Positions 3,338 to 21,508 of a stretch of 38,085 bases of DNA are shown here, piece by piece. Where the stretch lies: the NCBI GenBank assembly GCA_017419165.1, contig JAFOLW010000012.1:1-38085 (forward strand), given 5' to 3'. Every line of letters starts with the position of its first letter. Within the stretch, counting starts at the first letter, position 1. Source of the stretch: Erysipelotrichaceae bacterium (GTDB lineage Bacteria; Bacillota_I; Bacilli_A; Erysipelotrichales; Erysipelotrichaceae). Made by a program: the position numbers and the translations under genes. The notes beneath the pieces were generated by a model. That model saw only the letters and a program-made list of their open reading frames with translations. It was not told the origin of the DNA and ran no database searches.

Positions 3338-4414
3338 ATGGTCATGAAGAAGATCGATATTTTCGGAGAAAACCGTTTTGATGCCTTCAGCAAGATGAGA
3401 GAGGCGAGCCGCGGCATCATCGTCAAAGACGGGATGATCCTGCTGAGTCACGAGACCGCTTCGGGCTGCTGGATGATCCCGGGCGGCGGCAGAGAAGAAG
3501 GGGAAACGTCCGAGGGATGCTGTGTGCGTGAGATCGAAGAAGAGACAGGCCTTATCGTAAGGGTGCTGCAGCAGCTTTTGGAACTGAATGAGTATTATGA
3601 GGAATACCGCTATCTCAGCCGTTATTATATCTGTGAAGTGAGCGGCAAAGGGCAGCTGTGTCTTACGGAAGCGGAGTTGGAACGCGGCGTCCGGCCGGAG
3701 TGGATCCCGCTTGAAGAGGCGGTCGGCATATTTTCAAAACATGCGTCGTATGCTGCCGAGAGCGAAGAAAAACGCGGCATCTATCAAAGGGAAGATGCGG
3801 CACTTCAGACGTATCTGGAATGGAAAAGGACCGCAGGAAAAAGACGCAGAACGGTCGAAGTGAAAGAAACGGCGAAAGAGGATCTCGATGATGTCCGGCG
3901 TCTCTGGGCGGACGGAAACGTCATGAGATATGTCGGATTTCCCGACGGTCTGATCAAGACGGACGGACAGATGAAAGACTGGTTCAAACGGATCGAAGCC
4001 GGCCGGCCGCTCTTGGATCATTATTCCGTTTTTGAAGATGGGAGATACTGCGGAGAGTCGTTCTATGAGATCGATGAGGAACATGAGAGTGCCGCATTGG
4101 ACATCAAACTGTTTGATTTTGCGCGCGGACGGGGCATTGCGGCGGCAGGCCTGTCCCATGCGATCAAAGAAGCGTTCAAAAACGGCGCAAAGACCGTTTG
4201 GGTCGATCCGGTAAAGGAAAACGCAAAAGCGATCGCACTGTATGAAAAATTGGGATTTGTACAGAAAGACTATCCGGATCATCTTAGATACAAAGGCGAA
4301 GAGTGGAATTCGGTCTATATGGAACTGCATAAAGACGGAATAAAACAGGTCTTCTGCCCGGATGAGAAACTATTGCTTACGGAAACAAAGAAAGGGGAAG
4401 ATCATGATCATTGA
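3338..4414 (+). CDS. Nudix hydrolase fused to a GNAT acetyltransferase
   Basis: A 358-residue two-domain protein. Residues about 20-160 form a Nudix domain with the complete box GGGREEGE-x7-REIEEETGL, after a strand reading GCWMIPGGG. Residues about 170-335 form a GNAT domain with an acetyl-CoA loop (FARGRGIAAAGLSHAI) and motif B (ENAKAIALYEKLGFVQKDY). The linker (about 145-172) is charged and helical. No stop or frameshift separates the domains, so this is a true fusion. The two activities may act on one metabolite or nucleotide conjugate; that is inference. The last 11 bases overlap the following phosphorylase gene, and its final residues (KKGEDHDH) are read through that gene's ribosome binding site, so the two are probably co-transcribed. 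Confidence 0.88.
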   Translation: MVMKKIDIFGENRFDAFSKMREASRGIIVKDGMILLSHETASGCWMIPGGGREEGETSEGCCVREIEEETGLIVRVLQQLLELNEYYEEYRYLSRYYICEVSGKGQLCLTEAELERGVRPEWIPLEEAVGIFSKHASYAAESEEKRGIYQREDAALQTYLEWKRTAGKRRRTVEVKETAKEDLDDVRRLWADGNVMRYVGFPDGLIKTDGQMKDWFKRIEAGRPLLDHYSVFEDGRYCGESFYEIDEEHESAALDIKLFDFARGRGIAAAGLSHAIKEAFKNGAKTVWVDPVKENAKAIALYEKLGFVQKDYPDHLRYKGEEWNSVYMELHKDGIKQVFCPDEKLLLTETKKGEDHDH

Positions 4415-7785: not shown

Positions 7786-8898
7786 ATGCCGGTCGGTCTG
7801 AAACGCGGGACAGTCGTCCTGGAGGAACATCAAAGCATCTGGCAGGACTATGCAAAGAAGGCCATGGATCTTCTGCGTGCGGTCCTGAAAGAGAAGATCT
7901 GTGCAGTCGAACATGTCGGCTCGACGGCGGTGCCTTCGATCAAGGCCAAGCCGATCATCGATCTGGCCGTTGCCGTAGAAGATCTTGACGATGTTTTGGA
8001 CGAAAAGGAAGAACTGGAAAGAAGGGGCATCTATTTAAGGAATGTCTCCGATGAGGAGCTGCTGCTGGTGATGGGCGATCTGAAAAAGGACACCAGGAGC
8101 CATCACATCCATGTCGTGCCTTTCGCTTCGAAGAAGTGGAAGGATTACCTCCTTTTCCGCGATCATCTGCGGAAAAACAGGGAGGATGCGTCTCGTTATG
8201 AAAAGCTCAAGGAGGAGCTTTGTGAGAAATACGCTGAGGACAGGGCTTCCTATACCAAGGGCAAGGAAGGCTTCATCAGTGAGATCTTGAAGAAAGCGGA
8301 GGAAGAAGAGATGGACAAGCGGATCGAAAAGCAGCTGGCATTTGCCCTGGAGATCGACAAGGAGAAGAACATCTTCCGGCAGACCCATCTGTCCGGACAC
8401 GGAAGGGCGGAGAACGATGCCGAACATGCCTGGCATATGGCGATCATGGCGTATCTTTTACGGGAATATGCCAATGAGGAAGTAGATATCGCCAAGGTGA
8501 TGCTGATGTGTCTGATCCATGACATCGTGGAGATCGATGCCGGGGATACTTACGCATATGATGCGGAGGGTCTCAAGACGCAGAAGGAAAGGGAAGACAA
8601 GGCGAAGGAGCGGATCTTTTCGCTGCTGCCGGAGGATCAGAAAAAGGAGTTCATTTCTTTGTTCGATGAATTCGAAGACTATAAGAGCGCGGAGTCGAAG
8701 TACGCTCATGCGATGGACAACCTGCAGCCGCTGCTGTTGAACGATGCCAATGAGGGCGGTGACTGGAAGCAGCACGATGTCAACGCAAAGACCGTCTACG
8801 GGCGGCAGACCAAGACGAAGCTCGGTTCGGAAAAGCTCTTCGAGGTCAGTGACCGCATCCTGAAGGAGCACATCAGAAAAGGAAATCTCAAGGAATGA
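7786..8898 (+). CDS. GrpB-family nucleotidyltransferase-like domain fused to an HD-domain hydrolase
   Basis: A 370-residue fusion. Residues about 1-170 are a GrpB/UPF0157 domain, a nucleotidyltransferase-like fold, with its signature VEHVGSTAVPSIKAKPIIDLAV and SHHIHVVPFASKKWKDYLLFRD. Residues about 180-365 are an HD phosphohydrolase of the YfbR/5'-deoxynucleotidase type, with metal ligands in NDAEHAWHMAIMAYLL, CLIHDIVEIDAGD and the late YAHAMDNLQPLLL helix. A charged linker (KKAEEEEMDKRIEKQLAF) joins them without a stop. HD domains of this group remove phosphate from deoxynucleotides; GrpB has no firm biochemical role. The ATG follows the previous TAG with no gap, and no separate ribosome binding site is obvious, pointing to coupling. 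Confidence 0.88.
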   Translation: MPVGLKRGTVVLEEHQSIWQDYAKKAMDLLRAVLKEKICAVEHVGSTAVPSIKAKPIIDLAVAVEDLDDVLDEKEELERRGIYLRNVSDEELLLVMGDLKKDTRSHHIHVVPFASKKWKDYLLFRDHLRKNREDASRYEKLKEELCEKYAEDRASYTKGKEGFISEILKKAEEEEMDKRIEKQLAFALEIDKEKNIFRQTHLSGHGRAENDAEHAWHMAIMAYLLREYANEEVDIAKVMLMCLIHDIVEIDAGDTYAYDAEGLKTQKEREDKAKERIFSLLPEDQKKEFISLFDEFEDYKSAESKYAHAMDNLQPLLLNDANEGGDWKQHDVNAKTVYGRQTKTKLGSEKLFEVSDRILKEHIRKGNLKE

Positions 8899-8926: not shown

Positions 8927-10405
8927 TTATTTTGCGGCCGGCTGCCCGATCAGATCGGAGAGCGCCTGCAGATAAGGATTCTTGTAGTCCATGCGTTCTT
9001 TCAGACCGTCGATCACGCCTTTGTTGTAGATGGCGGAGAGATCGTCGATGTCGGCGCCGTACTTCTCATTCAGCATCTTGAAGATGTCGAAGGGGATCGT
9101 CATGTCCATCAGGTCCGTCCGCTGGCCGTTGTATCGGCCTAGGCCGTAGATCTCGATGTTGATCTCGATCTCAGAGATGTCAGCCCCCAAGGAGTTGATG
9201 AAGCGTTCGGTACGTTTCTTCGACAGGCGGTTGTAGATCAGCCGGATCAAAGAGGCGATGAAGAAGGAGAAGATGAACACCATCGGCAAGGAGAAGGTCG
9301 CCGGGATCCATTCCGTGAATTTGTAGAAGTCCCTCCAGCCGCCGTTTTCCGGTCCGATGAAGATCGCGTTGATCATATAGAAGATCGAATACAGGAAGAA
9401 GGGCGACATGGCGATCAGCGAGTCCCTGACGCTGAGCGTCCGGTCGATCTCGACGGAGAAGAACAGGGCAAGGGACAGGATCGGGCAGACCACATGCATC
9501 CAGAAGTTCGGTCCGCCGAAGGCGGTCTCGGCTCCGGAGGACAGGTAGATGAAGGTGAAGGCAAAGGACATCGTCACGCTCGTGCAGGAGGCTCCGGCAT
9601 ACTGGAACAGGGTGACCCATTTGGGCAAGACGAAGCGTTTCTTGCGGATGCCTTCGATCGCGTAGGGGATCATGAAGGCGGCACCTAAGGAAGACAAGAG
9701 CGCGGAGTTGACCGTGAAGTAGTTCAGGAAGGAATAGGACTGATCGTCCGCTTTGATCAGGTATTGATTCAGCAGCCCTCTCGAGATCGCCCGCAGGTTC
9801 AATAAGACCAGCAGACTTCCGGAGAACAGGGCGATGTAGCTCCTTTGCCGGTACAGAGAGATCATGTAGCTGCGTTTCGCCTTCTGGGAGCGCGTGAGCT
9901 TGGGCCGCTTGAAAGAGATCTTCTTACTGCTGATGCAGGGTCCGCTGTATTTGTTTTCGTTGAGTCCCAGAACGAAGAAGAAGACGGCTTCCATGAAGAT
10001 GAGTCCGTAGGCCAGATAGACGTCGCCGTGAAAGCTTCTCGCCAGCTTGAGTTTCATGAAGGCGTGGAGAGCATAAGCGATCAGGAAACACAGGATCGCG
10101 GGGATGCCCAGCACCGGATCCTCCAGGAGCCTGCCGTCATGAAAAGACAGGGCGGCGGAGATGACAGCGAAGAACAGATAGATGTATGCATATCTCTTAT
10201 CCCAGCACAGTCCGTAGATCTCCGTCAGATCATAAAAGGGAAGGAAAGCTTTCCAGGGCTTGATCCCGGCTTTTCTGAAGATCAGGAAGATCCCGTAGAA
10301 TTCCAGTCCCAGAAGGACGGCGGAAACGACGATGATCTCGGTCGCGAGGTCGCGGGGATAGATGATCATTTTAAGGATCGTATAGATGAGAAACAGGATA
10401 TCCAT
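8927..10405 (-). CDS. Polytopic membrane protein with N-terminal DUF5684-like domain
   Basis: A 492-residue protein with about ten or more predicted membrane helices. The N-terminal 150 residues resemble the DUF5684 family: a first helix, then YGIFLIFRKAGIKPWKAFLPFYDLTEIYGLCW, in which the conserved KAG-xxxWKAFLPxYxxxxI pattern is plain, followed by further helices. A basic cytoplasmic loop (KKISFKRPKLTRSQKAKRS, about 165-183) separates it from a second membrane region (about 190-400) that I do not recognise. The last 90 residues (from about 400) are soluble and acidic. Function is unknown; in other proteins this domain lies next to signal peptidase-like or secretion genes. It is divergent from the STAS/kinase pair, with which it shares the short intergenic region 10406-10529. 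Confidence 0.72.
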   Translation of the reverse strand: MDILFLIYTILKMIIYPRDLATEIIVVSAVLLGLEFYGIFLIFRKAGIKPWKAFLPFYDLTEIYGLCWDKRYAYIYLFFAVISAALSFHDGRLLEDPVLGIPAILCFLIAYALHAFMKLKLARSFHGDVYLAYGLIFMEAVFFFVLGLNENKYSGPCISSKKISFKRPKLTRSQKAKRSYMISLYRQRSYIALFSGSLLVLLNLRAISRGLLNQYLIKADDQSYSFLNYFTVNSALLSSLGAAFMIPYAIEGIRKKRFVLPKWVTLFQYAGASCTSVTMSFAFTFIYLSSGAETAFGGPNFWMHVVCPILSLALFFSVEIDRTLSVRDSLIAMSPFFLYSIFYMINAIFIGPENGGWRDFYKFTEWIPATFSLPMVFIFSFFIASLIRLIYNRLSKKRTERFINSLGADISEIEINIEIYGLGRYNGQRTDLMDMTIPFDIFKMLNEKYGADIDDLSAIYNKGVIDGLKERMDYKNPYLQALSDLIGQPAAK

Positions 10406-10456
10406 AATCTTTTTTTATTCTTATTTGATGTAAAAGTCAACGAAGATGTTCAGTTT

Positions 10457-10484
10457 TTGCGTAGATGGGAAAATACCTTATAAT
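10457..10484 (+). promoter_or_regulatory. Probable sigma-A promoter for the STAS/kinase pair
   Basis: A perfect TATAAT -10 box lies at 10479-10484, with a weak -35 (TTGCGT at 10457-10462, 16-base spacing). Transcription would start near 10491, giving a leader of about 40 bases with AAGGAGG placed 8 bases before the STAS start codon. Confidence 0.6.
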
Positions 10485-10529
10485 AGAAGAGGATCAATGG
10501 ATCACAAATGAAGCAAGGAGGATCAATCA

Positions 10530-10832
10530 ATGGAAATCAATAAGATCTTGAATGATAAAACCTGTACGATCGAACTGACGGGACGTTTGGATACCCTGAC
10601 TTCACCGCAGCTGGAAGAAGCTTTGAAGGAAGTTCCGGCCGACATCGAAAAGCTCGTGCTGGATCTCAAGGCTCTTGAGTACGTTTCTTCTGCCGGCCTG
10701 CGTGTCTTTCTGAACGCGCAGAAGTCGATGGCGGGCAAGGGAGAGATGATCCTTCGCCATGTCAACGAGGAGATCATGGAAGTCCTCAGCATGACCGGTT
10801 TCACCCAGATCCTGACGATCGAAAACGAATGA
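10530..10832 (+). CDS. STAS-domain anti-sigma-factor antagonist
   Basis: A 100-residue single STAS domain, the RsbV/SpoIIAA class. In partner-switch systems the unphosphorylated form sequesters a kinase that would otherwise hold a sigma factor or other target. The family signature LVLDLKALEYVSSAGLRVFL is present; by alignment with SpoIIAA, Ser54 is the residue phosphorylated by the partner kinase. The closing motif SMTGFTQILTIENE matches the STAS C-terminus. The matching kinase follows 3 bases downstream. The STAS half of the 19989-21086 fusion is clearly homologous over the full domain (for example shared ALTSxEFEKAL-like helix, YISSSGLR and DMTGFTDMF). AAGGAGG precedes the ATG. Confidence 0.92.
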   Translation: MEINKILNDKTCTIELTGRLDTLTSPQLEEALKEVPADIEKLVLDLKALEYVSSAGLRVFLNAQKSMAGKGEMILRHVNEEIMEVLSMTGFTQILTIENE

Positions 10833-10835
10833 ACC

Positions 10836-11291
10836 ATGACACAGGCAATGGAAAATATCGATATCGATCCAGCAAAAGCCTGTTTTATCGAAAGAGAGTT
10901 TGAAGCCGACGACAAGGAGCTTCCCGCCATCTTGGCGTTTTTGGAAGAAGAACTGGAGAAACACTATGCCGGTCCCAAACAGACGATGGCACTGTCTCTG
11001 GCTCTGGAGGAGGCTTTTGTCAATGTGGCGCATTACGCCTACGAAAACATGCCGAAAGGCAAGGCTTGGATCGGCTTATCGTTCGAGAACGATCGGGTAA
11101 CGGTCACTTTAAAAGATCACGGCATGGAATTCGATCCGCTGGCCAATGAGGATCCGGATATCACCGCCAGCGCGCAGGATCGGAAGATCGGCGGGCTGGG
11201 CATCTTCATGATCAAGAAGTCCACGGATTCCTGTTCCTATGTGAGGAAACAAGGTTACAATATTCTGACGATGACCAAAACGATCCGCTAG
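10836..11291 (+). CDS. RsbW-like anti-sigma factor serine kinase
   Basis: A 151-residue GHKL ATPase of the RsbW/SpoIIAB class, which phosphorylates the serine of its STAS partner and binds a target. The N box is EEAFVNVAHYAY (residues 58-69), with Asn63 as magnesium ligand. The G1 box is LKDHGMEFDPL, and the G2-like loop is KIGGLGIFMIKK. The N-terminal helical region carries no membrane span, so the protein is cytosolic. No sigma factor gene and no PP2C phosphatase is in this window, so the target is unknown. Start codons at 10836 or 10848 are both possible; neither has a strong ribosome binding site, in keeping with coupling to the STAS gene. The stop codon lies inside the terminator hairpin. 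Confidence 0.9.
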   Translation: MTQAMENIDIDPAKACFIEREFEADDKELPAILAFLEEELEKHYAGPKQTMALSLALEEAFVNVAHYAYENMPKGKAWIGLSFENDRVTVTLKDHGMEFDPLANEDPDITASAQDRKIGGLGIFMIKKSTDSCSYVRKQGYNILTMTKTIR

Positions 11292-11302
11292 CGGATCGTT
11301 TT
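11277..11302 (+). terminator. Intrinsic terminator of the STAS/kinase pair
   Basis: Perfect inverted repeat: AAAACGATCCGC (11277-11288) and GCGGATCGTTTT (11291-11302), with only TA between them, followed by further T/A. The TAG stop codon of the kinase is at the centre of the hairpin. Confidence 0.85.
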
Positions 11303-11349
11303 TAAATCGTCCTAGTGGACTGTTGAGCACGCAGTGCGAAACACATAAT

Positions 11350-11368
11350 CCACCTGCTTGGCAGGTGG
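11350..11368 (+). repeat. IS200 left-end hairpin
   Basis: CCACCTGC and GCAGGTGG around a TTG loop, 8 bp, extended outward by ATAA/TTAT after a one-base bulge. This is the imperfect palindrome expected for transposase binding at the left end. Confidence 0.75.
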
Positions 11369-11376
11369 TTATGATG

Positions 11377-11399
11377 ACGCTGTTTATAAAAAACGGCGT
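11377..11399 (+). promoter_or_regulatory. Leader hairpin upstream of tnpA
   Basis: ACGCTGTTT (11377-11385) pairs with AAACGGCGT (11391-11399) around an ATAAA loop, with one G-T pair. IS200 elements are known to limit their own expression with leader structures that block read-in transcription or translation; this hairpin is in the place where such a structure is found. Its function here is inferred. Confidence 0.5.
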
Positions 11400-11473
11400 T
11401 CCTTCCTTCTGTGTACTATCATGGTGATTGTCTAAGTCGCTATGCAGTTCATAAGAAAGGAAGGAAACGCTAT

Positions 11474-11971
11474 ATGGCAGAAAAATATGATTCTCTTGCC
11501 CACACAAAGTATTATACAAGATATCACATCATCTTCACTCCCAAGTACAGAAGAAAGGTGATCTATAACCAGTTAAGAAAGGATATATCGGAATACATCA
11601 GAAGACTGTGCCGATATAAGGGAGTGAAGATCGTTGAGGGGCATATGATGCCCGATCACGTTCACCTGCTTGTAAGTATCCCGCCAAAGTATTCTGTTTC
11701 CGAGATCATGGGCTACCTCAAGGGGAAATCCGCTATGATGATCTTTGAGTATCACGCCAACCTGAAATACAAGTTCGGCAACAGGCATTTCTGGGCCGAA
11801 GGGTACTATGTCAGCACGGTAGGACTCAATGAGTCGACCGTGCGCAAGTATATCCAGGATCAGGAGAAGGATGACATCGCAAAGGATAAGCTTTCCGTGA
11901 AGGAATATGAAGATCCGTTTGGCGAAGACAAGGAAGTCAGAAAAGAAAACAAAAACAAGAAGAAAGAATAA
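11474..11971 (+). CDS. tnpA: IS200/IS605-family Y1 transposase
   Basis: A 165-residue single-strand transposase. The HUH motif HVHLLVSIP is at about residues 61-69 (after GHMMPDH), which binds the catalytic metal. The catalytic tyrosine is in the helix VRKYIQDQEKDD near residue 136. The opening SLAHTKYYTRYHIIFTPKYRRKVIY is typical of the family. It ends in a lysine-rich tail (KEVRKENKNKKKE). An in-frame GTG at 11411 lies further upstream, but AAGGAAGGAAA just before the ATG at 11474 decides the start. The gene looks intact, with no frameshift. Confidence 0.95.
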   Translation: MAEKYDSLAHTKYYTRYHIIFTPKYRRKVIYNQLRKDISEYIRRLCRYKGVKIVEGHMMPDHVHLLVSIPPKYSVSEIMGYLKGKSAMMIFEYHANLKYKFGNRHFWAEGYYVSTVGLNESTVRKYIQDQEKDDIAKDKLSVKEYEDPFGEDKEVRKENKNKKKE

Positions 11972-12066
11972 GCCGTTCACGGCTCGCTGTATTTAACAGC
12001 AAGACGGCTTAGACTCTATAAGCCAGCCTCTTAAGGGGCTGGCAGATAAAAAGGGCTTATAGCCCT
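11970..12066 (+). repeat. Series of hairpins between tnpA and the IS right end
   Basis: Three stem-loops follow the transposase stop. The first has AAGCCGT (11970-11976) and ACGGCTT (12004-12010) enclosing GCTGT/ACAGC (11986-12000). The second is GCCAGCC/GGCTGGC (12022-12043), 7 bp extended by a G-T and a C-G pair. The third is AGGGCT/AGCCCT (12052-12066). They may act as terminator, RNA-stability structure or part of a structured 3' RNA; no function is shown by sequence alone. Confidence 0.6.
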
Positions 12067-12073
12067 AGTGCAA

Positions 12074-12094
12074 ACCACCCGTTTCACGGGTGGT
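12074..12094 (+). repeat. IS200 right-end hairpin
   Basis: ACCACCCGT and ACGGGTGGT around a TTC loop, a perfect 9-bp stem. It shares the CCACC/GGTGG core with the left-end hairpin, as expected when one transposase binds both ends. Confidence 0.75.
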
Positions 12095-12132
12095 CATGAT
12101 TAAAATAATTAAAGTGTGGTGTGTATTTTTTA

Positions 12133-12161
12133 TTGATGCAGATGGATAGTATCAGTAAAAT
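12133..12161 (+). promoter_or_regulatory. Sigma-A promoter of the adhesin gene
   Basis: TTGATG (12133-12138) and TAAAAT (12156-12161) are separated by exactly 17 bases. Start of transcription near 12168 would leave an AT-rich leader of about 70 bases. The promoter lies just downstream of the IS200 right end. Confidence 0.7.
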
Positions 12162-12239
12162 ATAAGAAACTGAATAGTTATGTTTTTATTATGGAAATGA
12201 ATATTTGATCCTTCATGACATATGAATTGGGGAGCGCTT

Positions 12240-15200
12240 ATGAATAAAAAACAGATTCAAACGGTACTGCAAAAGGTCTGTATCGTACTTATTGCTGCAT
12301 TGATCTTTCTGAACACATATTTATCAATGATCCTGCCGACGAATACGTTGGACAGCGATACCGCAGCAGAAGAGCCGGGCATCGGTCTTATCGAAGAAGA
12401 TAACACCGAAAAAGAAGTTACGGATAATAATACGGAAGCGCAAGAAGAGGATATCATAGTTCAGGATGGCTATGATCCTTTTGCCGTAGAAGAACAAAGA
12501 GAAGCGCAGCTCAATAAAGCAGCTGTTCCCGTTCCGGCTGAAGAAGAAGTGCAAGAAATAGGTACGGAAGAACAAGCCCCAATGTATTTTTATGATGATT
12601 CGACCGATGTCATCGTCTCCGTTGAAGCTCCCTTCGGTGCTTTTGAAGAAGGCACGGAGATGTTTGTCATGCCAGTCTATGAAGAGGATGTCATCGATGC
12701 GGTCAATGAGGCGCTTGATGCCGGAAACATCGCCGATGAGATCCTGGCTGTCGACATCAGCTTCAGATACGGCGGAGAAGAAACCGAACCGAAGCTGCCG
12801 ATCAAGGTCTCGCTGAGTGCCAAGATCATCGAAGAAGCAGAAGATCTGCAGATCGTTCATATCGATGACCGCGGTGAAGCTTCTGTTGTAGAACGTGTGC
12901 CGGAAGAAGGCGGAAGCGATGAAGTCATCTTCGAGTCCGGCAGTTTCTCGACCTACGTCGTCGTAAAGACAAAAACGGTCATCAATTATGTCACAGACAA
13001 CGGAGAGTCATATACGGTCACAGTGACATTCGATGAAAATGAGAAGCTTTATGGAAATGAAAGTCTCTCCGTAGAAGAGATCCCTGTCGGTTCCGATGAA
13101 TACATGAGTTATTATGCAAAGTCTGCCGCTGCAATGGGACTGACAGAAGACGAAGAGATCACGCAAGCCAGATTCTTCGATATCAAAGCACTGCGTGACG
13201 GACAGGTCTTCGAACCTGAATATCCGGCAGAAGTAAATATCGTTTATGAAGATCCGATGAAGATCGAAGACGGTGAGTTTTTGAGCATCGTTCATTTTGC
13301 CAGCGAAGGAACGGAAGTCATCGATACTTATGAGATCGATGATACAAACAGCGAACTGACTTACAAGCAGAGCAGTTTTTCCGTTACCGGTACCGTTGTG
13401 GCGGCGAACAATATACAAGATGGCGAACAATATATCGTTTATGCAAGCAGGGACAACGCCTATTATGCGATCTCGCATTATTCGGAAGGCCGTGACGGGG
13501 ATCTGGTCTACGGTGTAGAGATCGACGGAAGTTCGCAGACCGGTGCAACAGTAGGCAGTGATGACTATGGAAGCAGTATCGTCTGGACGGTACACAAAGT
13601 GACTGTTTCCGGAAATACTTACTACACGCTATCATATGAAGAAGGTGGAAAGACTTATTATCTCAGATCTTTCGGCGGTCTCATGGTCGGCGCCGACAGC
13701 GATTTCGACGATAACGATTACAAAAATGCGAGCAGATATCAGTGGCGGTATTCCAACCGCCGATTGAGAAATCGCAACAACGAAAATAATGAAAATCGAT
13801 ATTTGAGATATTCCGCATCTAACAACGGATTCAAAGAACGGGATAACGGATCTTCGGATTTCTATTTTGCAAAAGTGAATAGCGTTACTCCGGATATCGC
13901 GAACAATCCCGAGATCCATTTCGTCGATGAGGACGGGAATGAACTAGAGCTCGTCAACGGCAGAGACTGGGAAAGTGACGGCAATACCACCCCTGCTTTC
14001 CTGATCTATGACATAGATGGATACGATTATGTAAAGACGGCTTTGAACGGTGTTTCCGGAACGGAAATCCGTCCGATCCTGCGCAAGTCGGCAGGAAAAT
14101 GGCAGTATACGACTTCGGTCGAACAATCCACATCGATCTCATGGAGCGGTCTTTCCGATACCGATAAGATCTATGTCGTTTATAAAGAATCGACCGAACC
14201 GAAAAACGGCGGAACGCCGAAAGTTAAAGAATCATCTTCGACGGAAGATCCGGTCGATCCGGTGATCCATAAGGAATCCGTTTCCAACAGAGACGGTACC
14301 AACACGATCGGTCTGTCGATCACAGCCGATACTTCACCTTTGGAAGTTGAAAAACTGGCGGATGTCATCGTTATTTTCGATACATCGACGAGTATGCGCA
14401 GGAAAATGGGCACGAGTACTACGACGTATAACAACGATTCTACGCCTGCATCGCAGTGTGATCCTGAAACAAGGATCTATATCGCCGCACACCAAGTGAA
14501 TGTTCTTGCGGAAATGCTGATCGGAGACGAGACGAATTTCAAAGATTCTGCCGGAAACAAACTGATCCGCATGTCGCTGATCTCATTCAACAGAGATGCA
14601 AAGATCGAGCAAACATTTACAGACAATGCTTCAGATTTCCAGGGAAAAGTCAACGCTTTGACAACGAGTTCGGGAACGAACTGGGAAGCGGCTTTGGATC
14701 TGGCCAACCATATGGAGGTCGATCCGGAACGTGCGACCTTCGTCATCTTTGTCACAGACGGCAACCCGTCATATCGTTTATCAAGAGGAAATCTTCTGAC
14801 TCTGGACGGCTATCCTGCTACGGTCTCAGACCCGAACCTGGATGTTAATAGAGCAAATCAATATTATTTTTACAGAGCATTGAATTATTTCGGCGCTTTG
14901 GATGAGACTGACGTCCGAAACTACAACACAGCAGTTACCGAAGCAAAATCGATCGTCGATCATAAAAAGAATCTCTATACGATCGGCATCGGCAATGCGG
15001 CAGGCGTATCCAGACTGCAGAGCCTGACGATCAATGCATATAATAATGAAAGTATCGGAAAAGACCGAACGAAGACGGCAGAGACTGATGAAGAGCTGGT
15101 TAATGCGTTCAGCGATATCGCGGCTTCGATCGTCGCGCTGCTCGGCTGGGGCGACATCAATATGTCAGACGGTATCACAAGTCTGACCAATACGGTGGAG

Positions 15201-17810
15201 AAGAGCGGTCTGGTCAATGTAGACGGGAAATTCCAATACTGGAAAGCAAAAGCACCGGAAGGCTGGTCTGCCATGAGCAAAGCGGAAAGAGCAGAATTCC
15301 TGAAGACCTATCAGCCGACCGGTTTCGAACCGTGGGATCCGGCAACGGAAAACTGTGATCCGGCTCAATACGATGAAGCTACAGGTTCCGTAAAATGGGA
15401 TATGGGACATAATTTCGTTCCGGAGTCCGGTGCGACTTACAAAGTCACATTCCGCGTCTGGCCGAGTCAGGAAGCTTATGATATCCTTGCCAATCTTAAA
15501 AACGGAACAATCACTTATGACGAACTGGATGACAGTCAGAAGGCACAGATCGTAGATCACGGGAACGGCACTTACAGCTTAAAGACCAACGATAAAGATC
15601 CGAGCACGACATACAAGACCGCCAGAAAGACCGGCGATGGAGTCACGACGACGGGAGAAACGAAGACGCTGAGATTCAACAATGTCGATCCGATGGCACT
15701 GGTACCGGAGAAGATGACGGTCAGAAAAGATTGGGATTACGAGATCAATGACTCCCATGCGGCTGATGCGCTGAAGTTCCGGCTTCTGGTCGATGGCAAG
15801 TATTATCAGAACGACGGTACATTCAAAGAATCGACTGAGAATGCGAAGGTTTTGGATATCAGCGATAAAGAGAGAACAGTCAGCGGGGAAATCATCCCTG
15901 CCTGGTCCAATTCGGTCAATATCGCACCGGGTATCGTGAAATTCGTTGATGGCAAAGCCGAAGTATATGAGACAGGCCATCATTATCAGCTGGAAGAATT
16001 CGACATCACGCTGAACGGAGAAGATGCTTCGCAGTTTGCAGGCAGCTATGAATTCACTACGCAGACCGTAAGACCGATGGTCCTGACGGATGAAATAAAC
16101 AATTATCACGCCAAGCTCATTTATCTGATCCTGGCCGATGAGAACAATCCGGTACCGGAAGGAGCTCAGCAGTATACGATCGGAGAAAACACATATTTCG
16201 TTGCGGATGCAAACAACTCCGTAATGGTCGGTACGAACCACAGAAAAGCAGAGCTCGACATCACCAAACTGATCATCAACCTTTCTGAAAAGCCGGTTGA
16301 GGAGCTGATCAATGAAACCTTCACTTACAGGATTACCTTGAACGTTCCTGCCGATGCAGATCTGTCTTTGATTACCGGTTATGAATATGTCCAAAGAGCG
16401 GATCCGAATACCACACTGCACGGCTATCAGGAAGGTGACCATCCTTTGCCCGGCGATGAAGAAAGGTTCCGCGGACATATCTTCAGATGGGCCACGTTCA
16501 AATACGGAGCACAGCAAATCGGCGATGCATTTACGGATTTGGAAGAAGGAAGAAAAACTCTGACGATCGATGCGACGCTTCTTTACAATGAAGTCCTGCG
16601 TCTGACCAATCTGCCGACCGGAACGGTCTATACCATCGAGGAAGTCTATGCGAATCTGAAAAGAGCGAATCTGACAAGCGATGCGGAAGCCGTTCCGGAT
16701 CTCAGTGTCGAAAGCAACCTTGCTGAACAGGGATACACGGTGAGTAAGATCCTGACTTCCGCGACAGTAAAGACCGTCGATCTGGAACACAACAAGATCA
16801 CTGGTACGATCGATGAACCGGACAAACGTTATTACAATCAGTTCACCAATACTTTAGGCAATGTGATCGATGTCGAATTGAAAGGCACGAAACACCTTGA
16901 CGGATATGCGTGGAGCGGCGAAAGCTACTATTTCAATCTGTCAGGGGGAGAAGGGACACCGTTGCCTGTTATCGGTGCCTATGGCAGAGTGAGGTTCTTC
17001 CTTAAAGAATCAAGCGGCAACGCCGATAAGACTTATTCTTTCGGAAAGATCCGTTTTGATAAAGCCGGAGAGTACGTTTATACCATCAGTGAGGATAATG
17101 CCGGTACGACGCAGACGGTCAACGGCAGAGAAGTCTTGTTTGGTGACCCGGAAACAGTCACGATCAAGATCGTTGCTGATGAAAATGACAACGGCAAACT
17201 CAAGGTCGCTTCCGTTACAGGAAGTGACAACATGGTCTGGAATGTAGATGCATTAACAGCGACGGTGACCATCACCAATACGTCAGTCACGAAAGAGACC
17301 GATGTGAAACTTAAAAAGGTCGATCAAACCGGTGCTTTGCTCAGCGGTTCCGAATTCGCCTTATATAAGTTTGTCAATAATGCCTGGACTCCTGTGGAAG
17401 GGTTCACGCAAATAACTCCGGGAAGCACGGAGGCCAACAATCCATTCGATCTCGGTATGCTGGAGACGGGACGTTACAAGCTCACCGAGACGAAAGCGCC
17501 GGACGGTTATATCATCCGGATCAGGGATACCTACTTCGAGATCAGGAATGAAGAACAGAGCGTCACTGCTGTTCTCACAGATGCAGACGGTGCGCCGATC
17601 ACTTCGGAAGATCCCGCAAAGATCTCCCGGGAAGGATTGGGAGAATCCGCTTACTATCTGATCACCGTCAAGAATATCGCAGGTACACCGCTTCCGATGA
17701 CCGGCGGTATCGGCACACAGATCTTCCGCGTCGGCGGTGCAGTGCTGATCGGTGTGGCTGCGATGTTGAGAAAAAGATCGGATAACAGATCATTCCATAA
17801 AGGTACATAG
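12240..17810 (+). CDS. LPXTG-anchored giant adhesin with VWA, FctA-like and SpaA-like domains
   Basis: A 1856-residue surface protein. Residues 1-35 form a signal peptide (MNKKQIQ start, hydrophobic core VCIVLIAALIFLNTYLSMIL). An acidic spacer follows, then two related modules (about 110-245 and 255-390) that both contain an F-x-x-G-x-E/FEPEYP-like strand and end in SGSFSTYVVV or QSSFSVTGTV. A von Willebrand A domain occupies about 708-960; its MIDAS is intact: DTSTS at 714-718, a later TSSGTNWEAALD threonine and the aspartate in FVTDGNPS. An FctA/Spy0128-like pilin domain lies at about 1540-1683 and a SpaA/Cna-B-type domain at about 1685-1790; both types commonly form Lys-Asn isopeptide bonds. 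The sorting signal LPMTG is at 1818-1822, followed by a membrane span and RKRSDNR. A GGGGAG site favours the ATG at 12240 over 12222. No sortase gene lies nearby, so a housekeeping sortase is expected. Confidence 0.92.
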   Translation: MNKKQIQTVLQKVCIVLIAALIFLNTYLSMILPTNTLDSDTAAEEPGIGLIEEDNTEKEVTDNNTEAQEEDIIVQDGYDPFAVEEQREAQLNKAAVPVPAEEEVQEIGTEEQAPMYFYDDSTDVIVSVEAPFGAFEEGTEMFVMPVYEEDVIDAVNEALDAGNIADEILAVDISFRYGGEETEPKLPIKVSLSAKIIEEAEDLQIVHIDDRGEASVVERVPEEGGSDEVIFESGSFSTYVVVKTKTVINYVTDNGESYTVTVTFDENEKLYGNESLSVEEIPVGSDEYMSYYAKSAAAMGLTEDEEITQARFFDIKALRDGQVFEPEYPAEVNIVYEDPMKIEDGEFLSIVHFASEGTEVIDTYEIDDTNSELTYKQSSFSVTGTVVAANNIQDGEQYIVYASRDNAYYAISHYSEGRDGDLVYGVEIDGSSQTGATVGSDDYGSSIVWTVHKVTVSGNTYYTLSYEEGGKTYYLRSFGGLMVGADSDFDDNDYKNASRYQWRYSNRRLRNRNNENNENRYLRYSASNNGFKERDNGSSDFYFAKVNSVTPDIANNPEIHFVDEDGNELELVNGRDWESDGNTTPAFLIYDIDGYDYVKTALNGVSGTEIRPILRKSAGKWQYTTSVEQSTSISWSGLSDTDKIYVVYKESTEPKNGGTPKVKESSSTEDPVDPVIHKESVSNRDGTNTIGLSITADTSPLEVEKLADVIVIFDTSTSMRRKMGTSTTTYNNDSTPASQCDPETRIYIAAHQVNVLAEMLIGDETNFKDSAGNKLIRMSLISFNRDAKIEQTFTDNASDFQGKVNALTTSSGTNWEAALDLANHMEVDPERATFVIFVTDGNPSYRLSRGNLLTLDGYPATVSDPNLDVNRANQYYFYRALNYFGALDETDVRNYNTAVTEAKSIVDHKKNLYTIGIGNAAGVSRLQSLTINAYNNESIGKDRTKTAETDEELVNAFSDIAASIVALLGWGDINMSDGITSLTNTVEKSGLVNVDGKFQYWKAKAPEGWSAMSKAERAEFLKTYQPTGFEPWDPATENCDPAQYDEATGSVKWDMGHNFVPESGATYKVTFRVWPSQEAYDILANLKNGTITYDELDDSQKAQIVDHGNGTYSLKTNDKDPSTTYKTARKTGDGVTTTGETKTLRFNNVDPMALVPEKMTVRKDWDYEINDSHAADALKFRLLVDGKYYQNDGTFKESTENAKVLDISDKERTVSGEIIPAWSNSVNIAPGIVKFVDGKAEVYETGHHYQLEEFDITLNGEDASQFAGSYEFTTQTVRPMVLTDEINNYHAKLIYLILADENNPVPEGAQQYTIGENTYFVADANNSVMVGTNHRKAELDITKLIINLSEKPVEELINETFTYRITLNVPADADLSLITGYEYVQRADPNTTLHGYQEGDHPLPGDEERFRGHIFRWATFKYGAQQIGDAFTDLEEGRKTLTIDATLLYNEVLRLTNLPTGTVYTIEEVYANLKRANLTSDAEAVPDLSVESNLAEQGYTVSKILTSATVKTVDLEHNKITGTIDEPDKRYYNQFTNTLGNVIDVELKGTKHLDGYAWSGESYYFNLSGGEGTPLPVIGAYGRVRFFLKESSGNADKTYSFGKIRFDKAGEYVYTISEDNAGTTQTVNGREVLFGDPETVTIKIVADENDNGKLKVASVTGSDNMVWNVDALTATVTITNTSVTKETDVKLKKVDQTGALLSGSEFALYKFVNNAWTPVEGFTQITPGSTEANNPFDLGMLETGRYKLTETKAPDGYIIRIRDTYFEIRNEEQSVTAVLTDADGAPITSEDPAKISREGLGESAYYLITVKNIAGTPLPMTGGIGTQIFRVGGAVLIGVAAMLRKRSDNRSFHKGT

Positions 17811-17882: not shown

Positions 17883-19190
17883 ATGACAGGCATACAGTAC
17901 ATGCTGAATATCGCGATCGACTGCTTCGGAGCCGCGATCAGTGTCGTAGGGCTTCTGGCATCCATCATCGCGTCGAGGATCAATCAGCTGGTGAAGAGGT
18001 ATTTCATCATCCTTTTTGCCGTACATCTGGTCTACATCCTTTCCAATCTGACGGCTCTGCTGTTCCGGGGCGTGCCGGGGTCATTTTCCCGAAGCGTCGT
18101 CTACATCTCCAACTTCGGGGAATTCTTCTGTTCGGCGATGCTGGCGTACTGGGTGTCCCACTACATGGTGGACATCACTTTGAAAGATGAAGTGTCGATC
18201 AGAAGATACAAGAACGTCTTCAACATCCTCATGACCATCCATACGGTCATCCTGCTGATATCTCAGTTTACCGGTCTCTATTACACGATCGATGAATTCA
18301 ATGTCTACCACCGCAACACGATGTTTCCGCTGTCCTTTTTGTGGGCGGGGATCATGCTGCTGATGGACATGAAGGTGATCTTGGACAATACCGGTTCGCT
18401 GTCCAAGAAACAGATCGTCGGTTTCTGGGCCTATCTGATCTCGCCGTTCATCGGCATCATCATTCAGGCTTTCGTCTACGGCGTGGATTTTCTGGTGGCT
18501 TCGACGGTCCTGGCGGGCATGTTCATGTTCATGATGATGGCGTTCGACCAGACGGAGCGCAATATCAAGGCGATCGTCGAGAACGAGACCATCAAGGCAT
18601 CTTTATTGCTGGGACAGATCTCGCCGCATTTCATATTCAATTCTCTGATGTCGATACAGGACCTGTGTTATACCGATCCGCAGATGGCGGCCGACAGTAT
18701 CGGCGATTTTGCCGTCTATCTGCGTCACAATATGGAGGATCTGACCGCCAACGAGATGATTCCGTTTGAAAAGGAGCTGGGTTTCATCAGGGAATATGTC
18801 CGTCTGGAGAAACTCGATCCCGACCGGGATTTCGATATGGAATATGACCTGGAGATCAAGGAGTTCCTGATCCCGACGCTGACGCTGCAGCCGGTGGTGG
18901 AGAATGCGATCAACTACGGCGCCCTCACCTGCAAGAAGGAGAAGGGCAAGGTCGTTTTGAGCACCCGGCGGATGAACGATCAGATCGTGATCCGGGTCTG
19001 GAACAATTTTGAAGGCAAACGGTCGGTAACGGAAGGTCAGAAGAAGCACCGCAGTATTGCCACGGAAAATATCAAGTCGAGGCTCAAGTACTACTGTCAG
19101 GGGACCTATGAGATCGACATCCGTGAGGAGGATGCGGAGGCAAGGATCATCCTGCCGATGAATGAAGTGATGGGAGGGCAATCCGTATGA
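17883..19190 (+). CDS. LytS/His-kinase-type sensor histidine kinase
   Basis: A 435-residue sensor. The N-terminal 225 residues are membrane embedded with about six to seven spans and no extracellular domain of note. The kinase domain belongs to the His_kinase (LytS/AgrC-neighbour) class: LLGQISPHFIFNSLMSIQ carries the phospho-acceptor His249, and the ATPase N box is TLTLQPVVENAINYGAL. A GHKL tail with NIKSRLKYYCQGTYEI follows; the glycine-rich lid is short, as is usual in this class. The gene overlaps the response regulator by four bases (ATGA). The ligand is unknown. It lies directly downstream of the adhesin terminator, so adhesin control is possible but not shown. Confidence 0.9.
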   Translation: MTGIQYMLNIAIDCFGAAISVVGLLASIIASRINQLVKRYFIILFAVHLVYILSNLTALLFRGVPGSFSRSVVYISNFGEFFCSAMLAYWVSHYMVDITLKDEVSIRRYKNVFNILMTIHTVILLISQFTGLYYTIDEFNVYHRNTMFPLSFLWAGIMLLMDMKVILDNTGSLSKKQIVGFWAYLISPFIGIIIQAFVYGVDFLVASTVLAGMFMFMMMAFDQTERNIKAIVENETIKASLLLGQISPHFIFNSLMSIQDLCYTDPQMAADSIGDFAVYLRHNMEDLTANEMIPFEKELGFIREYVRLEKLDPDRDFDMEYDLEIKEFLIPTLTLQPVVENAINYGALTCKKEKGKVVLSTRRMNDQIVIRVWNNFEGKRSVTEGQKKHRSIATENIKSRLKYYCQGTYEIDIREEDAEARIILPMNEVMGGQSV

Positions 19191-19978
19191 GAACGATCAC
19201 CGTCGACGACCGCAGATCCGTCGTCAATATGATGCTGAGGATCCTGGATAAGATCGATCCGGAGGGCGAACACATCGGGACGACCGATCCGGAGAAGGCA
19301 CTGAAGGTCCTGAAGGAAAAGGATGTGACGGCCGCTTTCGTCGATGTGGAGATGCCCAAGATCAACGGCATCGTCCTGGCAAAGATGATGCAGGAGATCA
19401 AGGCGGAGATCAACATCATTTTCATCACGGGCTATGAGGAATATATGCCCGAGGCTTTCGAGCTCTATGCCAGCGGTTATCTGATGAAGCCGGTGGATGA
19501 GGATGATGTGCGCAAGTCGCTGGAGCACCTGCGTTACAAGAATGATAAAATTAAGACATCTGCACTGCGTGTGCAGTGTTTCGGCAATTTCGAAGTCTTC
19601 GTTGGCAACACGCCGATGTTGTTCCACCGGTCCAAGTCCAAGGAACTGTTCGCTTATCTGATCGACCGCAAAGGCGCGGCCTGCACCAACGATATGATCA
19701 TCGGCAATCTCTGGGCGGACAAGCCGCTGACGGAGTCGCTCAAGTCTTTGCAGAGGACGGTGACTTCCGAGATGATCAAGGACTTTGAACAGATCTCAGT
19801 GGAAGGCCTTTTCATCAAATCGAAGAACGGCATCGCCGTGAATACCGAGATGGTGGACTGTGATTATTACAGGTATCTGGACGGGGATGAAAAAGCGGTC
19901 CGCCAGTTCAAAGGGGAGTATATGACCCAGTATGAATTTGCGGAAGAGACGAGAAACAATCTGCTGAAGAATTATTGA
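19187..19978 (+). CDS. Response regulator with a SARP-like winged-helix output domain
   Basis: A 263-residue cytosolic regulator. The receiver domain (1-120) has the acidic pair Asp7-Asp8, the phospho-acceptor Asp53 in AAFVDVEMPKINGI, the switch threonine in IFITGYEE and the lysine in GYLMKPVDEDD. The output domain (about 128-263) opens LRVQCFGNFEVFVGNTPMLFHRSKSKELFAYLIDRKG, the hallmark of the OmpR/SARP-type winged helix of regulators described as CheY-SARP, but lacks the long TPR-like BTAD tail. LytS-type kinases normally pair with LytTR regulators, so this partner is a little unusual. The gene overlaps the kinase gene by four bases and is followed 10 bases later by the STAS-HAD gene. Confidence 0.88.
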   Translation: MRTITVDDRRSVVNMMLRILDKIDPEGEHIGTTDPEKALKVLKEKDVTAAFVDVEMPKINGIVLAKMMQEIKAEINIIFITGYEEYMPEAFELYASGYLMKPVDEDDVRKSLEHLRYKNDKIKTSALRVQCFGNFEVFVGNTPMLFHRSKSKELFAYLIDRKGAACTNDMIIGNLWADKPLTESLKSLQRTVTSEMIKDFEQISVEGLFIKSKNGIAVNTEMVDCDYYRYLDGDEKAVRQFKGEYMTQYEFAEETRNNLLKNY

Positions 19979-19988
19979 GGATGAGACT

Positions 19989-21086
19989 ATGAAGATCGAA
20001 AGACTCGAATATGATGATATCCTGATCCTGTGCCCTTTCGGGCGGATCGATGCCCTGACCTCGGCGGAATTCGAAAAAGCGCTGCTGGAAGCGATCGATG
20101 AAGATCCCAATCTGATCATCGATCTGCAGGAGACCGAATACATCTCCTCTTCCGGACTGCGGGCTTTTCTTGCGGCCAAAAAGAAGATCGGCGACCGTGG
20201 CGCATTCTCGATCATCAATGTGAACGATGACGTGCTCGAAGTCTTTGACATGACCGGTTTCACCGACATGTTCCACATCGAACGTACGGACGATGCGAAG
20301 AAAGACATCAAAGTCATCTTTTTCGATATCGACGGGACGCTGCTTTCCCACAAGACCGGCAAGGTACCGGAAAGTGCGATCGATGCGATCGGCAAGGTAC
20401 AAAAAAAGGGCATCAAGATCGCCGTCGCGACGGGAAGAGACATCGTCGAGATGAAGAAACTGCCGCTCGACGGCATCCATTTCAACGGCTATCTGACGCT
20501 CAACGGCAATATCTGCCTCGATGAGGATGAGAAGATGTTTGCGGGCAATGCGATCGATCCGGGTGAGGTGGAGGTCCTGGTCTCCATCTTCAAGGCCGGC
20601 AGGATCCCGTTCGTGCTGATCGGCGAAGAGAAGCGCTACATAAACTATGTGGACGACGTCGTCATCCGCACACAGGAAGCCACCCACGGGACCATCCCGG
20701 ATATCGGGGAATACCAGGGTGAAAAGATCTACCAGTGTATCGCTTTCGCCGACAAGACGACCAGAGAGAAACTGGAAAAACTGCTGGATCACTGTCACAT
20801 CACTTCCTGGAACGATACCGGTATCGATATCATCGCCAAGACCGGCGGCAAGGCGGCCGGCATCCAGAAGTTTCTGGATAAGGAAGGCATCCTGAGGAGT
20901 CAGACCATGGCCTTCGGTGACGGAGAGAACGACCGCACGATGCTGAAGTATGCCGGGACCGGCATCGCGTTGGGTAACGGATCGCCGTTATTGAAAAAGG
21001 ATGCCGACTACATCACCGACGACATCGATGAAGACGGTGTCCGCAACGCTCTGATCCATTTCGGGCTTCTGGGAGAGAACGAATGA
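19989..21086 (+). CDS. STAS domain fused to a Cof-type HAD phosphatase
   Basis: A 365-residue fusion. Residues 1-100 form a STAS domain with the phosphorylatable-serine motif EYISSSGLRAF (Ser54 by alignment to SpoIIAA) and the closing DMTGFTDMFHIE. Residues about 107-362 form a Cof-type HAD hydrolase with all catalytic motifs intact: FFDIDGTLL (nucleophile Asp113, acid/base Asp115), VATGRD, the lysine in GGKAAGIQKFL and GDGENDRTML. The C2-type cap lies between. STAS domains are normally dephosphorylated by PP2C enzymes; a HAD in cis suggests a self-contained switch, or a metabolite-phosphate sensor reporting to a partner-switch kinase. This is inference. GAGGATGA precedes the ATG. The stop overlaps the start of ruvX (ATGA). 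Confidence 0.9.
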   Translation: MKIERLEYDDILILCPFGRIDALTSAEFEKALLEAIDEDPNLIIDLQETEYISSSGLRAFLAAKKKIGDRGAFSIINVNDDVLEVFDMTGFTDMFHIERTDDAKKDIKVIFFDIDGTLLSHKTGKVPESAIDAIGKVQKKGIKIAVATGRDIVEMKKLPLDGIHFNGYLTLNGNICLDEDEKMFAGNAIDPGEVEVLVSIFKAGRIPFVLIGEEKRYINYVDDVVIRTQEATHGTIPDIGEYQGEKIYQCIAFADKTTREKLEKLLDHCHITSWNDTGIDIIAKTGGKAAGIQKFLDKEGILRSQTMAFGDGENDRTMLKYAGTGIALGNGSPLLKKDADYITDDIDEDGVRNALIHFGLLGENE

Positions 21087-21508
21087 AATATATCGGACTC
21101 GACCTGGGTTCGGTGACCTGCGGTATCTCCAAGTCGGACACCGGAAGACTGGCGCAGCCGGTCAAGACGCTGCGTTTTCATCCGGACGACTACGATGAGG
21201 CGATCGACAAGATCCTGGAATACATCAAAGAAGAACAGCCGGATCTTATCGTCATGGGTTATCCTTTGTTGTTGAACGACGACGAAGGTCCTAAGGCAAA
21301 ACTGTGCCGGGAAGTCGGGGAGATCATCGAACAGGAATCCGGCATCAGGGTCGTTCTGCAGGATGAGCGCAATACGACCAAGGATTCACAGGACTTTCTG
21401 ATCATGGCCAACGTCTCCCGGAAAAAACGCAAGAAGGTCATCGACCAGCAGGCGGCGGTGAGGATCCTGCAGTATTATCTCGATAAGAATGAAAAAAACG
21501 CTCTCTAG
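21083..21508 (+). CDS. ruvX: Holliday junction resolvase-like RuvX (YqgF family)
   Basis: A 141-residue RNase H-like protein, the usual family length (about 138-150). The family motifs are present: IGLDLGSVTCGIS with Asp7, IVMGYPLLLNDDEGPKAKLC, LQDERNTT and the closing DQQAAVRILQYYL. Two positions differ from the usual form: DERNTT in place of DERLTT and Val-Thr-Cys after the glycine-serine in place of Arg-x-Gly. RuvX is implicated in 16S pre-rRNA 5'-end processing and in resolvase activity. It is translationally coupled to the STAS-HAD gene and ends the signalling operon. The stop codon is in the terminator loop and overlaps the convergent gene's stop. Confidence 0.88.
   Translation: MKYIGLDLGSVTCGISKSDTGRLAQPVKTLRFHPDDYDEAIDKILEYIKEEQPDLIVMGYPLLLNDDEGPKAKLCREVGEIIEQESGIRVVLQDERNTTKDSQDFLIMANVSRKKRKKVIDQQAAVRILQYYLDKNEKNAL

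Follow-up and report, generated by a model that had tools for sequence, protein, structure and literature searches.

The gene at 19989-21086 of a 38,085-nucleotide stretch of Erysipelotrichaceae DNA (contig JAFOLW010000012.1; hereafter the window) encodes a STAS domain joined to a HAD hydrolase. Genes of a partner switch recur around relatives of this gene. We propose that the STAS-HAD protein is the enzyme arm of a partner-switching module, in which phosphorylation of the STAS domain would set HAD activity; judged from sequence comparisons and predicted structure, this reading has a probability of about 0.5.

Architecture and conservation of the STAS-HAD fusion

19989-21086, + strand: STAS-HAD fusion gene, ATG start, 365 aa, single open frame
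Residues 1-100: STAS domain
Residues 101-106: linker
Residues 107-361: HAD-IIB Cof domain

Pfam matched STAS (PF01740) to residues 4-100 (E=1.2e-17) and Hydrolase_3 (PF08282) to residues 110-355 (E=8.4e-51). The protein scored 173.9 bits against the NCBIfam Cof profile TIGR00099 (cut-off 137), and its STAS half scored 61.6 bits against TIGR00377 (cut-off 53.45). When 35 fusions were aligned, Ser54 (35/35) and D21 of the STAS half were invariant, as were HAD residues D113, D115, G149-R150, K288, D311, and D315; T148 was T or S, with S in 2 of 36 relatives. All four HAD catalytic motifs are intact. Profile, motifs, and fold all class the HAD half as a Cof-type HAD. Ser54 aligned with the phosphorylated serine of SpoIIAA and RsbV. 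In the AF2 model of the fusion (pLDDT 89.8, pTM 0.85), Ser54 is the first residue of helix 54-67, the place expected for a phosphorylatable serine, at the opening of helix 2. An earlier note on the window had described an intact STAS domain with Ser54 and an in-frame HAD with four catalytic motifs; the profile matches and the residues bear out both descriptions.

Values of dN/dS were ~0.08-0.18 for the STAS half and ~0.04-0.11 for the HAD half (comparisons with finite dS only); these ratios are rough because synonymous sites are near saturation, as seen in the STAS dS. Purifying selection thus acts on both halves, indicating that the fusion is not due to chance. Assembly artefact or read-through was ruled out by the recurrence of the fusion in 34 genomes and in other MAG sets.

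Genes of the window and interruption of an ancestral cluster

The genes associated with the fusion in the window are as follows.

10530-10832, + strand: single-domain STAS protein of anti-sigma-antagonist type, phospho-serine motif YVSSAGLR
10836-11291, + strand: RsbW-like HATPase_c_2 protein (PF13581, 2.4e-25, 89 bits)
11411-17810, + strand: insertion that splits the ancestral cluster; locus L017 has none between these genes
11411-11971, + strand: IS200-type transposase
12222-17810, + strand: vWA/SpaA surface protein, 1862 residues
17883-19190, + strand: LytS-type sensor histidine kinase (HK; PF06580)
19187-19978, + strand: response regulator (RR), receiver PF00072, C-terminal region weakly like Trans_reg_C
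21083-21508, + strand: RuvX (YqgF; PF03652), 4-base overlap with the fusion gene

The RsbW-like protein has an EEAFVN box with N63 and a glycine-rich GGLG motif. It missed the equivalog cut-offs of RsbW (41.1 bits; cut-off 145) and SpoIIAB (25.5 bits; cut-off 135). By score, it is a HATPase_c_2 kinase-type protein and not an RsbW equivalog.

In loci L017 and L018, the genes for STAS, RsbW, HK, RR, STAS-HAD, and RuvX form one run. The RsbW-HK gap is ~136 bases in L017; the same gap in the window holds the transposase and the surface protein. Because L017 and L018 keep these genes in one run, the STAS/RsbW pair of the window (10530-11291) and the fusion are, as judged from gene order, pieces of one ancestral cluster. 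The earlier note had linked the separate STAS protein and the kinase at 10836-11291 to the fusion, and this gene order supported the link. Its broader suggestion that the fusion is tied to a partner switch was supported by the L017/L018 run and by the module genes shared among loci (see below).

The same note had placed the fusion in a two-component operon with a LytS-type kinase, a winged-helix response regulator, and RuvX. The kinase, the receiver, and RuvX were confirmed by profile; the winged helix of the response regulator is only likely (Trans_reg_C, E=0.087). The operon is present in the window, but it does not hold as a general context: an HK/RR pair is found with the fusion at no more than 8 loci (7 fetched ones plus the window), and the pair was therefore ruled out as the main context. 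In L019 and L020 the pair lies on the opposite strand. These findings indicate that the two-component pair is a local feature, and that the partner-switch genes are the wider and more telling association. RuvX accompanies 7 loci and is probably a housekeeping passenger; it was set aside as a functional partner of the fusion.

Two other ORFs of the window also combine domains. One (7786-8898) encodes a GrpB domain and an HD_3 (YfbR-like) domain, and the other (3338-4414) a NUDIX domain and a GNAT acetyltransferase domain.

A recurring partner-switch gene module

All fetched loci were scanned with profiles derived from proteins of the module itself, and identities were assigned by Pfam and NCBIfam. 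A same-strand set of genes recurred: STAS, RsbW-like HATPase_c_2, PP2C, HD_4, STAS-APH, and HAD. Gene order was STAS, RsbW, HAD (three separate genes) in L059; STAS, STAS-APH, RsbW, HAD, MatE-HATPase_c_2 in L055-L057; and STAS, PP2C-RsbW, HD, STAS-APH, STAS-HAD, RuvX in L050. PP2C was often fused to the HATPase_c_2 kinase or encoded in the same cluster as the fusion. Further fusions among the partners were STAS-APH, PP2C-RsbW, HD-STAS (L053), and a triple fusion STAS-APH-RsbW (L065). The phospho-serine position was occupied by Ser in every STAS class of the module. STAS-APH had the APH fold, the motifs HGDYH and IDMD, and conserved catalytic residues.

The genome of the window carries STAS, PP2C-HATPase_c_2, HD, and STAS-APH on another contig (L006), and MatE-HATPase_c_2 several kb farther along that contig (L016). 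This MatE transporter with a C-terminal HATPase_c_2 (RsbW-like) domain is often encoded directly after the HAD gene.

L016 (own genome, C23), 25-1860: MatE-HATPase_c_2, Pfam-checked
L055, 6782-8578: MatE-HATPase_c_2, Pfam-checked

The corresponding proteins of L056, L057, L059, L062, L065, and L069 were assigned by membership of the blastp family of the L055 protein. Inside the switch module, L006 (6157-6723) encodes a stand-alone HD_4 protein that resembles RelA/SpoT hydrolases and carries an HDxxED motif; this protein, STAS-fused in L053, possibly links the switch to alarmone turnover. In the L059 cluster, one gene (9380-11611) combines a HAMP-containing PP2C with a GNAT acetyltransferase. 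An MscS-type channel gene lies directly 5' of the STAS gene in L028 (5126-5953), with homologues in L026, L032, L050, and L063; a gene in the window's own genome (L006, 3167-3961) looks similar.

A module gene (STAS, RsbW, PP2C, APH, or HD) was found within 3 kb at 23 of the 46 HAD-clade loci with enough flank, vs. none of the 13 Cof HADs of the outgroup (Fisher p=8e-4). Comparison of unfused HAD-clade members alone with the outgroup gave p=1.6e-3. A point against the proposed role is that 14/26 fused loci had no module gene within 3 kb. The window is one of these 14 because of its insertion.

Fold and phylogeny of the HAD domain

The HAD domain has a C2-type cap at about residues 187-275 of the fusion protein. 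In a Foldseek search with the AF2 model, the HAD part gave 3r4c as best match (E=3.6e-26, TM 0.88 by target), followed by BT4131 (1ymq, E=1.3e-23; 2rb5); identity in the structural alignment with BT4131 and its relative 3r4c was 31%. On this model, the nearest solved structures are sugar-phosphate phosphatases, and the domain is predicted to be a small-molecule phosphatase.

The HAD domain of the fusion fell in a distinct clade of the HAD tree (SH-aLRT 99), within which STAS-HAD formed a single clade (38 rows, support 98). A reverse-order fusion, HAD-STAS, was met once (L071) and arose apart from the STAS-HAD clade. Cap residues were kept in unfused clade members at 82% of 40 positions, vs. 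51% in the outgroup.

Distribution of the fusion

The earlier note had considered that the fusion might be limited to one genome, and had proposed a search for its architecture across Bacillota. A full or nearly full fusion with at least 53% identity was present in 34 of the 273 genomes of the window's family. The HAD clade was absent from all 391 other genomes of the phylum in an evenly drawn sample. Thus, the fusion recurs but is confined to the family and the few other lineages named below, and phylum-wide spread of the HAD clade was ruled out. Roughly 30 fused relatives were found in the genome collection, mostly in rumen/gut Erysipelotrichaceae and Solobacterium MAGs and in a minority of cases in Coriobacteriales and Clostridiales MAGs; names and bins of these MAGs may be wrong. 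STAS and HAD occurred as adjoining but unfused genes in Clostridia and Chloroflexi MAGs. Many of the genomes are MAGs of ~70-95% completeness, and gene absences are therefore soft. STAS-APH was found in 11 of the same 391 genomes, in some cases with PP2C/RsbW adjoining, whereas the HAD clade was found in none; HAD is thus an accessory to a more widespread module.

Co-occurrence, proposed mechanism, and alternatives

PP2C (PF07228) was found in 34/34 fusion genomes vs. 24/35 control genomes, and STAS-APH in 39/42 HAD-clade genomes vs. 19/35 controls (p=1e-4); the controls were drawn from the same two main genera, and these figures ignore relatedness. Among the 34 fusion genomes, 33 had HATPase_c_2 and 32 had STAS-APH. 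Co-occurrence of the fusion with RsbW-like kinases lacking a PP2C partner, which the earlier note had suggested looking for, is contradicted by the presence of PP2C in every fusion genome. No SigB/F/G sigma factor exceeded the TIGR02980 cut-off in the 34 fusion genomes, and one did so in 1 of 14 control genomes; the switch may have some other target. Because of this result, we regard the STAS half as working like a partner-switch antagonist, by likeness, and do not file it as part of a sigma-factor switch.

In the proposed mechanism, HAD would be a Cof/BT4131-type phosphatase with one conserved phosphometabolite as substrate. We infer that the RsbW-like kinase, whose gene adjoins that of the fusion, would bind the STAS domain and phosphorylate Ser54. 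A PP2C phosphatase, in some cases one with sensor domains, would remove this phosphate. Whether Ser54 is phosphorylated would determine if the fusion is kinase-bound or free, and by this route the switch would control HAD activity. The STAS-fused APH-type kinase would be governed in parallel, and the target of the switch would be a kinase and a phosphatase, either in place of a sigma factor or in addition to one. Most simply, STAS would put HAD under the control of the RsbW/PP2C pair or let it report to that pair. That the APH kinase and the HAD phosphatase act on a common substrate is a guess, made because STAS-APH co-occurs with the HAD clade. A fuller scheme, in which one PP2C/RsbW switch sets the level of a phosphometabolite through STAS-APH and STAS-HAD acting on the same compound, with MatE-kinase and RelA/SpoT-like arms, is tentative, and we doubt that it holds as a whole.

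The same module data are also consistent with a metabolite input, which the earlier note had named as an alternative. STAS-HAD and STAS-APH would then be sensors: turnover or binding of a phosphometabolite would alter the shape or availability of STAS, which would titrate the RsbW-like kinase, and the true outputs would be other proteins (a sigma factor, the MatE-RsbW transporter, or GNAT-PP2C). The single-domain STAS proteins of the module could be the real antagonist, and MatE-HATPase_c_2 is a candidate output. However, the fusion genomes yielded no SigB/F/G factor over the cut-off, and the conserved catalytic residues of HAD and APH fit working enzymes but do not distinguish input from output. 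We consider such an input possible but on the unlikely side.

STAS domains act as docking modules in other proteins, and a few HADs of the clade have no STAS (L049, L051). Both points favour a role of STAS as an oligomerisation or docking tag for HAD, with no phospho-switching. A plain tag would not need Ser54 kept, and this reading is weakened by the invariance of Ser54 and D21 and by the RsbW-like kinase and PP2C that accompany the fusion; it is rather improbable.

The earlier note had suggested that HAD strips phosphate from a STAS serine, either its own or that of the separate STAS protein, in place of PP2C; the physical fusion of STAS to an intact phosphatase favours this. It is nevertheless very improbable in view of the ubiquity of PP2C in fusion genomes (often in the same cluster or kinase-fused) and of the theme of enzymes joined to the switch (STAS-APH, HD-STAS, STAS-APH-RsbW). 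Phospho-STAS is also an unlikely substrate because the HAD, a Cof enzyme with a C2 cap, is closest to BT4131-type sugar phosphatases, and because clade members with a separate STAS gene, or with none close by, conserve the cap.

Comparison with known systems and implications

The SpoIIAA/SpoIIAB/SpoIIE and RsbV/RsbW/RsbU switches of Bacillus resemble the present module in their phospho-serine STAS protein, HATPase_c_2 kinase, PP2C, and common gene clusters. The module differs from them in the lack of SigB/F/G above cut-off in the fusion genomes, in the fusion of STAS to HAD, APH, and HD, and in the fusion of the kinase to PP2C, MatE, and STAS-APH. BT4131 (1ymq) and 3r4c share with the fusion the whole HAD fold, all catalytic motifs, and the C2-type cap; however, they have no STAS, and the present HAD clade is set apart by conserved cap residues of its own. 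STAS-APH resembles TIGR02172/APH-type kinases in its fold and motifs, but it is STAS-fused and its match to TIGR02172 is below cut-off. In the open-licence literature, we found no description of STAS-HAD or STAS-APH fusions, which does not prove that there is none, and no paper on TIGR02172.

Partner switches are usually taught as controllers of sigma factors. An enzyme as target is known for only a few of them (SiaABC-SiaD and HsbA-HsbD). Binding of HsbA to the diguanylate cyclase HsbD depends on Ser56 (PMC5085249), and SiaC, cycled by the SiaB kinase and the SiaA PP2C, controls SiaD (PMC7647112). An enzyme output of a partner switch thus has precedent. In both Pseudomonas aeruginosa systems (SiaABC-SiaD and HptB-HsbR-HsbA-HsbD), the switch has a diguanylate cyclase as its target, in place of a sigma factor or alongside one (PMC7647112, PMC5085249), as an enzyme target is proposed here; their target is a separate enzyme that makes c-di-GMP, whereas the putative target here is a STAS-fused HAD phosphatase.

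The cluster is repeated in uncultured rumen lineages, where phosphatase, kinase, hydrolase, acetyltransferase, and transporter proteins are all found covalently joined to switch domains. Because the module joins several enzymes and a transporter to switch parts, the switch may steer metabolism directly. If it controls the fused enzymes, a signal would reach a metabolite by a short path that bypasses transcription. The proteins of the module are testable cases for the role of RsbW/PP2C/STAS systems that have no sigma factor.
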